Positions 12,977-36,099 of a DNA stretch of 64,000 nucleotides are shown in pieces; the first letter of the stretch is position 1; each line of letters opens with the position of its first letter. Position numbers and translations under genes: made by a program. The notes beneath the pieces are model-generated. The model did no database searches. It was not told the origin of the DNA and was given only the letters and a program-made list of their open reading frames with translations. This stretch comes from Pseudomonas sp. R84 (GTDB lineage: Bacteria > Pseudomonadota > Gammaproteobacteria > Pseudomonadales > Pseudomonadaceae). The stretch spans positions 6,093,501 through 6,157,500 of the forward strand of contig NZ_CP019426.1 of NCBI RefSeq assembly GCF_009834515.1, read 5' to 3'.

Positions 12977-14587
<1,611 letters not shown>

Positions 14588-35044: not shown

Positions 35045-35245
35045 CCCTCACCCTAGCCCTCTCCCGGAGGGAGAGGGGACCGATTGGGGGATATTCGGGA
35101 ATTGCGCCGACCTGGGAATGTTGTACTGAATCCAGAATTTACCAGGTTCACCAGATCCATAATCGACTCGGTTTTTCAGGTCGATGTATGACGCCAGACA
35201 CCTCGGTCGGCCCCCTCTCCCTCCGGGAGAGGGCTGGGGTGAGGG
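35045..35245. repeat. Long inverted repeat element, family D (one internal unit)
   Basis: Same ends as the elements at 9852 and 27411. The interior has a diverged CCAGAATTTACCAGG segment and a TTTTTCAGGTCGATGTATGA segment. It separates mdcA from the DUF6124 gene. Confidence 0.8.
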
Positions 35246-35257
35246 TCAGCTTTTTCG

Positions 35258-35623
35258 CTACTCCGTCGGCACCAACCTATCCAACAAACGATTGACGGCC
35301 ATCTCCGCCACCATCACCACCTGAGCAATACCCTGCACAGTCTTGCGGTGCGTACCCTCCACCATTGCCGCATGGTTGTTGAGCATCACCGTAGCCGAAC
35401 CGAGGGTTTCGCTGGCGTCGGCCAGCAGGGACTCGGTGTCGGCATTGGGGTTGGCCATGTACAGCGTGTTGGGGGTGTAGGGCGTGGCCATCAGATCGGC
35501 GTTGGTCGGGCCGAGATAATGGTCGAGGGCGCGTTCGGCGGCTTCGTGGAATTTCTTGGAGTCGGGGGATTCGTAGGGGGATGCCGGGTCGGTGACCGGC
35601 GGGTTAGGCGTTACTTTGAACAT
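35258..35623 (-). CDS. DUF6124 family protein
   Basis: A 121-residue cytosolic protein opening MFKVTPNPPVTDPASPYES, a hallmark of the Pseudomonas DUF6124 (formerly DUF3077) family. The Pro-rich N-terminus is followed by a helical region from about residue 25. AASEAL-like helices (DTESLLADASETLGSATVMLNNHAAMVEG) end in QVVMVAEMAVNRLLDRL. No function is known. GAGGA lies before the ATG at 35623. Its leader contains the unusual hairpin set at 35651-35838, and no other gene lies between it and the chpC end. Confidence 0.88.
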   Translation of the reverse strand: MFKVTPNPPVTDPASPYESPDSKKFHEAAERALDHYLGPTNADLMATPYTPNTLYMANPNADTESLLADASETLGSATVMLNNHAAMVEGTHRKTVQGIAQVVMVAEMAVNRLLDRLVPTE

Positions 35624-35650: not shown

Positions 35651-35838
35651 CCGCTTCTCTACTAAAAGAAGTGGAGGCAGCTGTGCGCAGGTTAGTAGAC
35701 CGGGGATCTGGGAAACCGGCGCGCCGAAGCGCCCTGCGCACAACCACCATAAAGTGCAGGTATGGAGTACCTGACTGTCTGATGAGCTATACGCCCCAAA
35801 TATGACGGGCTACTAAACCCGATCACTGGAAATCAGTG
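35651..35838 (-). promoter_or_regulatory. Structured leader of the DUF6124 gene: two hairpins with identical loops plus a complementary segment
   Basis: Plus-strand coordinates. Hairpin B: CCGCTTCT (35651-35658) and AGAAGTGG (35667-35674), loop CTACTAAA. Hairpin A: CGGG (35806-35809) and CCCG (35818-35821), the same loop CTACTAAA. Between them TTAGTAG (35692-35698) complements both loops. A 10-bp stem TGTGCGCAGG (35682-35691) with CCTGCGCACA (35733-35742) encloses that segment. Further hairpins are CAGGTA/TACCTG (35757-35773) and TCACTG/CAGTGA (35823-35839). Read on the minus strand, the set lies directly before the DUF6124 ribosome-binding site. No known riboswitch class was recognised. Confidence 0.5.
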
Positions 35839-35839
35839 A

Positions 35840-36034
35840 CGGAATCAAGTTACGCAGCATGCCGAAGGCGCACAAGCCGGCGGATTCTGGTGCATGCGTA
35901 GGCAGCGGCGCAAGGATTTGTAGGCCATGGAGCCGTAACACCGGGTGTCTTTAAACAGATGTGCCTGGATGCGTTTATTGCGCTGCGGGGATTGAGGATT
36001 TGTCTGTCGGATTTTGGTGGATGCCGCAGGCGCT
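35840..36034. other. Gene-free stretch upstream of the structured leader
   Basis: About 195 bp with two overlapping open frames on the minus strand but no start codon with a ribosome-binding site. From memory, very similar peptides (around AHLFKDTRCYGSMAYKSL) are annotated as tiny hypothetical proteins in other Pseudomonas genomes. That would point to a conserved non-coding element more than a gene. Not verified. Confidence 0.4.
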
Positions 36035-36099
36035 ATCGCGAGCAGGCTCACTCCTACAGGGGAATGCATTCCAACTGTAGGAGTGAGCCTGCTCGCGAT
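36035..36099. repeat. REPIN-type inverted repeat, family B
   Basis: Facing family B motifs lie downstream of the chpC stop and could help end the Pil-Chp transcript. Confidence 0.85.

Follow-up and report, generated by a model that had tools for sequence, protein, structure and literature searches.

C4 is a known phage immunity RNA. In phages P1 and P7 the C4 RNA (RF01695) belongs to the immI operon c4-icd-ant, and the P1 record gives the order promoter, a1, b1, C4 (48343-48419, annotated as a separate 77-nt RNA), a2 (4 nt after C4), b2, and icd, which starts 50 nt after C4. RNase P processing of C4 to ~77 nt is known through PMC5320573, and PMC2864571 describes C4 and c4-a1b1 as motifs that occur in Proteobacteria and in phages. 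Processed C4-like RNAs have also been reported in A. baumannii, whose Group 1 C4-like sRNAs comprise many C4-derived RNAs per genome with a variable recognition loop and, in the accessible part of that account, with targets proposed rather than identified (PMC5320573). Another RNA, isrK (RF01394), also governs a downstream phage antirepressor gene (PMC4825925); it activates translation in trans, whereas C4 is expected to repress.

Here, we describe a leader in Pseudomonas sp. R84, within a window of 64,000 nt (the whole stretch of DNA analyzed, to which all unlabeled positions refer). On sequence comparison, it is highly probable that this leader is a C4-type antisense RNA module, one of 36 in the chromosome with their own codes, that its code changes together with its target, and that it represses the DUF6124 gene behind it. 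It shares with P1 and P7 the C4 fold, two recognition arms, targets before and after C4, a b2 site over the ribosome site, and a first gene about 50 nt after C4. It differs in that the Pseudomonas modules are chromosomal, occur in many copies, and would control DUF6124, DUF3077, and unnamed small proteins; the gene downstream in the window encodes DUF6124, not icd plus an antirepressor, and a Bro-N gene follows at 2 of 36 loci. Compared to A. baumannii, the following gene in Pseudomonas carries the matching sites, so that the likely target of such multiplied C4-like RNAs, the small gene that follows, now becomes visible. No prior description of a Pseudomonas C4 array was found in the accessible literature, with an earlier mention possible in the Weinberg 2010 supplement.

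A C4-type leader upstream of a DUF6124 gene

A whole-window Rfam scan gave two matches above cut-off: a C4 antisense RNA on the minus strand (35754-35670; 72.6 bits versus a gathering score of 45; E 3.1e-12) and, elsewhere, an SAH riboswitch at 13055-13154 on the plus strand (67.4 bits; cut-off, 37). The target model c4-a1b1 (RF03163) matches at 35853-35802 with E 8e-7 on 301 bases and 32.9 bits, below its gathering score of 46.7; genome-wide, 16 of 32 RF03163 matches exceed that score. The fold of the 251-nt leader lies 4.2 sd below its own shuffles, none of 200 shuffles is as stable, and a similar geometry repeats at other C4 loci in the R84 genome. Together with the C4 E-value and the a1b1 match below gathering, this confirms that the leader is structured more than expected by chance. 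An earlier, sequence-only reading knew of no described class with this layout, which was mistaken: the layout is the C4/a1b1/a2b2 arrangement of phage P1. A riboswitch or a wholly new RNA class was rejected once the C4 model matched, and identity with isrK was rejected because its weak match over hairpin A and the spacer before C4 reaches 20.1 bits, far below the cut-off of 50.

All elements of the module lie on the minus strand. A likely sigma-70-type promoter (35847..35875) consists of TTGTGC (35875-35870), 17 nt, and TAACTT (35852-35847), a TTG...-N17-TAnnnT pattern conserved over 36 loci, and its -35 hexamer is overlapped by a class I promoter box, CAGAATCCGCCGGCTTGTGCG (35869..35889). A 5' stem-loop corresponding to the first half of c4-a1b1 (35822..35840) stands at the predicted transcript start. 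It is followed by hairpin A (35806..35821), read directly and located by script, with a 4-bp stem and an 8-nt loop (CTACTAAA on the plus strand, TTTAGTAG on the minus strand). This hairpin falls within the RF03163 match below cut-off, and its loop, UUUAGUAG, is complementary to the C4 linker, as expected of target a1. A possible b1, AUUUGGGG (35794..35801), pairs with the C4 apical loop when G-U is allowed and is the best match of the upstream stretch, with a weaker signal than b2. C4 itself (35670..35754) would be processed, by analogy with P1, to approximately 35748-35673. Its long stem includes the perfect 10-bp stem 35682-35691/35733-35742 of the earlier reading, and the TTAGTAG noted there on the plus strand (35692-35698) is the C4 linker, the recognition segment of the a arm (CUACUAAC, 35691..35698).

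Behind C4, hairpin B (35651..35674) exposes the same loop, UUUAGUAG, again complementary to the linker and assigned to target a2, and lies 28-51 nt upstream of the DUF6124 ATG (35623), as had been proposed. Its 8-bp stem holds for the plus strand, with one G-U; on the minus strand, which is the gene strand, there are 7 pairs and an A.C mismatch. The linker/hairpin arm of the pairing scheme was also read correctly, but the decisive pairing, between the apical loop of C4 and the Shine-Dalgarno region, was missed. The apical-loop recognition segment of the b arm, CCAGAUCC (35711-35704), is perfectly complementary over 8 Watson-Crick nt to b2, GGAUCUGG (35634-35627), which lies over the ribosome site of the DUF6124 gene (35258..35623; 121 aa; PF19619, 62.9 bits versus a cut-off of 27), 46 nt separating C4 from the ATG. 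C4 is therefore complementary to both a2 and b2, with b2 at the ribosome site, and a1 is complementary to the linker as well. The proposed mutually exclusive pairings gain support from both arms pairing with a cis target. The choice offered between a cis-regulatory RNA and an independent structured RNA appears to be both at once, with C4 stems that covary and arms that pair in cis.

From P1 and from these pairings, we infer transcription, processing, trans action, repression, and a role for a1/b1. A single promoter would produce a transcript carrying a1/b1, C4, a2/b2, and DUF6124, from whose leader C4 would be cut out. C4 would then pair by two short arms, the linker with a2 and the apical loop with b2 over the ribosome site, and DUF6124 would stay untranslated while enough C4 is present. 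The 5' a1/b1 copy could take up C4 and in this way set a threshold or buffer C4. Two long inverted repeats, 35045-35078 with 35211-35246 in the stretch after DUF6124 and 36037-36059 with 36075-36099 upstream of the cassette, flank the cassette; we take both to be REP-like.

C4 copies in the R84 genome and across the genus

The R84 genome that holds the window (G000) contains 36 C4 matches, 35 of them above cut-off, and 33 DUF6124 genes, of which 29 stand directly after a C4 by position. The remaining seven C4s precede Bro-N proteins (2), DUF3077 proteins (2), and small proteins without a Pfam match (3). Bro-N is a domain found in phage antirepressors. Three DUF6124 loci without a C4 (L067-L069) and L174 lie outside the analysis. 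Conservation of the stems at other loci, on which the earlier reading had staked its proposal, is borne out: over the 36 C4s of R84, 95.5% of 970 cells are paired and both partners vary in 17 of 27 pairs, values that none of 500 shuffles matched on any of five measures, so that the three-helix C4 fold has covariation support. The GG at the 5' end of C4 is invariant.

Of six genomes surveyed completely, five contain 36-47 C4s each and the sixth contains 10. Within a genus sample of 149 genomes, C4 is present in 138 and DUF6124 in 118 (per-genome C4 counts of 27 in this sample mean at least 27). DUF6124 occurs in 1 of 115 genomes of an order sample, that of R84 alone, but this sample says little about close kin, since apart from R84 it includes just one genome from the genus and two from the family, none of which has DUF6124. 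At 20 of 20 named Pseudomonas DUF6124 loci, picked from the most similar of 80, C4 lies 44-46 nt upstream of the gene. All 80 contigs of that set carry Pseudomonas names, as do the named entries among 120 listed of 710 related proteins. In G009, C4s form clusters at L133, L131, and L132 with a spacing of ~100 nt or 300-500 nt, and several of the copies lack a2 pairing or have no gene behind them; these are probably decayed cassettes.

Private pairing codes

Every apical loop was scored against every ribosome-site region by gapless Watson-Crick complementarity, with 5,000 permutations per genome. Cis scores exceed trans scores in all six genomes: 18.0 versus 10.1 in R84 (n = 36), 18.5 versus 10.6 in G010 (n = 35 of 36, the weakest, partial C4 match being left out), 16.7 versus 10.6 in G009 (n = 38), 16.8 versus 11.4 in G003 (n = 10), 17.4 versus 10.2 in G062 (n = 47), and 17.0 versus 9.9 in G097 (n = 43), and in each case none of the 5,000 permutations reached the observed value. 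The cis target is unbeaten for 26/36 loops in R84, 26/35 in G010, 21/38 in G009, 6/10 in G003, 33/47 in G062, and 29/43 in G097. Pairing of the linker with a2 is cis-specific too (0/5,000 permutations in each of the six genomes), and matches in R84 are at least 6 nt long between linker and a2 at 34 of 36 loci and at least 7 nt, with G-U allowed, between loop and b2 at 31 of 36. The upstream pairings, loop with b1 and linker with a1, are weaker, chiefly in G009 and G003, where 3 to 10 of 5,000 permutations reach the observed sum; a2 pairing is absent at 12 of 38 G009 loci.

Apical loops are all distinct in R84 (36/36), G009, G062 (47/47), and G097 (43/43), and nearly so in G010 (33/35) and G003 (9/10). 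Linkers fall into shared classes, one of which, TCTACCAAC, occurs at 9 of 36 R84 loci; because linkers are common to several loci, the a arm alone cannot be private. A comparison of full duplex energies is less sharp, with the cis target the best for 10/36 loops in R84. We think that this poorer discrimination is due to cross-pairing of the C4 stem arms, and the unpaired loop alone was therefore compared. Apparently, and unexpectedly, each C4 in the chromosome carries a separate pairing code directed at the small gene that belongs to it. With 36 antisense/target pairs that have diversified naturally, side by side, on a common fold, this genome is well suited to testing how short RNA codes are kept distinct.

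Apparent leader replacement at syntenic loci

In the window, the cassette lies between genes that we take to be mdcA and chpC from their proteins. Both flanks are present in 10 (including the window) of the best 30 cassette loci, a set chosen by cassette match in which empty sites could not appear. Alignment shows one code at this site in R84 and G055, a second in six genomes (G019, G036, G111, G097, G098, and G034), a third in G033, and the first two in tandem in G062. From the first code to the second, the linker changes along with both a1 and a2 (CUACUAA with UUUAGUAG versus CUGCUAA with UUUAGCAG). At this site in G036 (L074), the aligned start codon is ATT, not ATG.

More widely, 21 locus pairs between R84 and G062 or G097 share both flanks, with identical loops in 10 and changed loops in 11. 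Over the 11 changed pairs, one of which may not be a true orthologue (coding identity 0.51), identity is 0.88 in the coding sequence and 0.85 in C4 outside the loops, versus 0.55 in the loop and 0.59 in b2. The cis score is 18.5 versus 11.1 for crossed combinations, and in 8 of 11 both cis pairings are stronger than the crossed one. When the unique downstream flank alone is required, 13 of 36 pairs have identical loops and cross-pairing is lost in 16 of the other 23, in a set that includes two pairs with coding identities of 0.51 and 0.57. Small loop changes keep the pairing in several pairs (L009, L011, L013, and L064).

Segment identities were taken from 11 pairs, one of them an unchanged control, hand-chosen from the flank-matched set (the L022 pair was added by its upstream flank). 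Promoters are 87-100% and coding sequences 86-100% identical. In the 10 changed pairs, leader identity falls to 57-79% in a1b1 plus spacer, 77-91% in C4, and 47-80% from a2 to b2. In the segment directly before the promoter, 5 of these 10 pairs are 93-98% identical and the remaining 5 are 46-69% identical, so that the leader alone differs in half of them, while elsewhere the exchange, if it is one, may reach further up. A divergent leader between a conserved promoter and a conserved coding sequence looks like block replacement, and block differences of this kind at loci that are conserved suggest that the code itself is under selection; the code would change along with the target, in many cases as a single leader block.

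No donor leader for exchange within a genome was seen in R84, G062, G097, or G009, where no leader is >0.9 similar to another; of the five genomes tallied, such similarity was found only in G010 (2/35), and in-genome gene conversion was rejected as the leader source. At six R84 loci (L002, L012, L018, L027, L028, and L061), the upstream flank is a repeated stretch that matches, for ~200-900 nt, the upstream flanks of several further C4 loci in G062 and G097.

Promoter boxes

Over the 36 R84 loci, a -35/-10 pair with 17-nt spacing lies at a constant distance upstream of the first hairpin, at least three loci (L011, L018, and L019) being anchored on the wrong hairpin. A generic promoter scan reported none. 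Two boxes overlap the -35 element, class I at 18/36 and class II at 8/36 R84 loci (26/36 with either), and boxes are borne by 22/35 C4 loci in G010, 34/47 in G062, 32/43 in G097, 0/38 in G009, and 0/10 in G003. The class I 21-mer has 18 sites in the R84 genome at up to 2 mismatches, every one at a C4 locus. The class II 19-mer has 9 sites at up to 3 mismatches, 8 of them at C4 loci, and its reversed control has 3 matches. The class I box is also found in 43 viral-contig stretches. The boxes point to shared regulators in this lineage. The single class II site away from C4 is G000:C1:1004995-1005013, with 3 mismatches.

Links to phages and mobile elements

Relatives of DUF6124 are encoded in 56 viral-contig loci. 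C4 lies upstream in 20 of 20 viral loci examined, 45-54 nt before the gene in 16 and 530-550 nt in 4 (L306, L309, L311, and L312). The 22 viral C4s, with 18 distinct loops and some near-identical contigs among them, also pair in cis (18.3 versus 10.0 in trans; 0/5,000). A neighbor scan at six loci of five contigs assigned 12 of 18 proteins to families of phage tail, head, or connector proteins, with every locus represented. Since viral C4-DUF6124 modules stand beside phage structural genes, the module also travels as cargo of phage or tailocin-like clusters, the window copy sitting between ordinary chromosomal genes. Plasmid cargo was rejected, with DUF6124 in 0 of 72,556 plasmid records, and so was a gene of phages only, with DUF6124 in 1 of 50,697 phage records despite the 56 viral-contig loci. 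Viral loci with modules near tail or head genes include L330, L331, L335, L343, L346, and L322; at L335, the module lies between a tail fibre and a tail sheath gene.

Alternative explanations and meaning of the array

These data are best read as an immunity module of the phage type, present in many copies with private antisense codes, that would restrain small proteins; toward this, our sequence comparisons establish C4 identity and covariation, a geometry like that of P1, pairing specific to the cis target, leaders that differ as blocks from one sister genome to another, and shared promoter boxes. The pairings might instead act within one molecule only, C4 folding back on a2/b2 as an attenuator and never being released as an sRNA. 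All pairing evidence is in cis, and the cis test would give the same result either way. This is nonetheless quite unlikely, since the invariant GG and the geometry match P1, with its separately annotated 77-nt RNA, since processed C4-like RNAs are reported for A. baumannii in the accessible part of PMC5320573, and since, if there is no pairing in trans, it is difficult to account for a separate copy of a1/b1. We give very little credence to a cross-talking network in which a single C4 would regulate numerous DUF6124 paralogues by way of shared linkers. The shared linker classes fit it, as does the better-scoring target at another locus for 10/36 R84 loops, but apical loops are distinct, on average match far better in cis, and in orthologues with changed loops mostly lose cross-pairing.

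Slow neutral compensation alone, with no selection for private codes, could also make loops and targets diverge. It would account for the identical loops kept at 10 of 21 syntenic pairs and for the small changes that keep pairing, and sequence upstream of the promoter is itself divergent in 5 of the 10 chosen pairs, so that a conserved promoter may only reflect general conservation among copies. We consider it unlikely, given the divergent leaders between conserved promoters and coding sequences and the high pre-promoter identity in the other 5 pairs. A further step beyond private codes, which we put forward only tentatively, is that the 36-47 modules of five of six genomes, most with private codes that switch by whole-leader exchange, form an immunity-like system whose array is a self/non-self repertoire for mobile DNA. 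If so, each locus would change its "immunity type" while the protein stays, as heteroimmune phages do, and a newly arriving module whose code has no match would be expressed until it had accumulated C4 of its own. The simplest reason for private codes is avoidance of cross-silencing between copies; the boldest is recognition of incoming modules.

Proteins encoded downstream of C4

The literature search found no publication naming DUF6124 and next to none for DUF3077; both families gain a first regulatory context here. DUF6124 is predicted to form a helical hairpin with a disordered N terminus (mean pLDDT, 76.9; pTM, 0.47; blocks of 84-95 over two long helices), and a fold search with this model gave no match at E <= 0.001 (best, 0.78). 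The pooled dN/dS of the downstream genes is 0.09 over 21 pairs hand-listed from the flank-matched set. In the six genomes, an ORF of at least 60 aa starts 38-66 nt after C4 at 181 of 209 loci, and 28 of 209 have no such ORF at the expected distance. An adjacent proline pair within residues 5-13 is found in 151 of these 181 ORFs, whereas among the long ORFs in the window it is found in 2 of 40. It takes forms such as TPNPP and VPDPP near the start of proteins of otherwise unlike sequence, and may represent a pause signal in translation or a motif of the protein.
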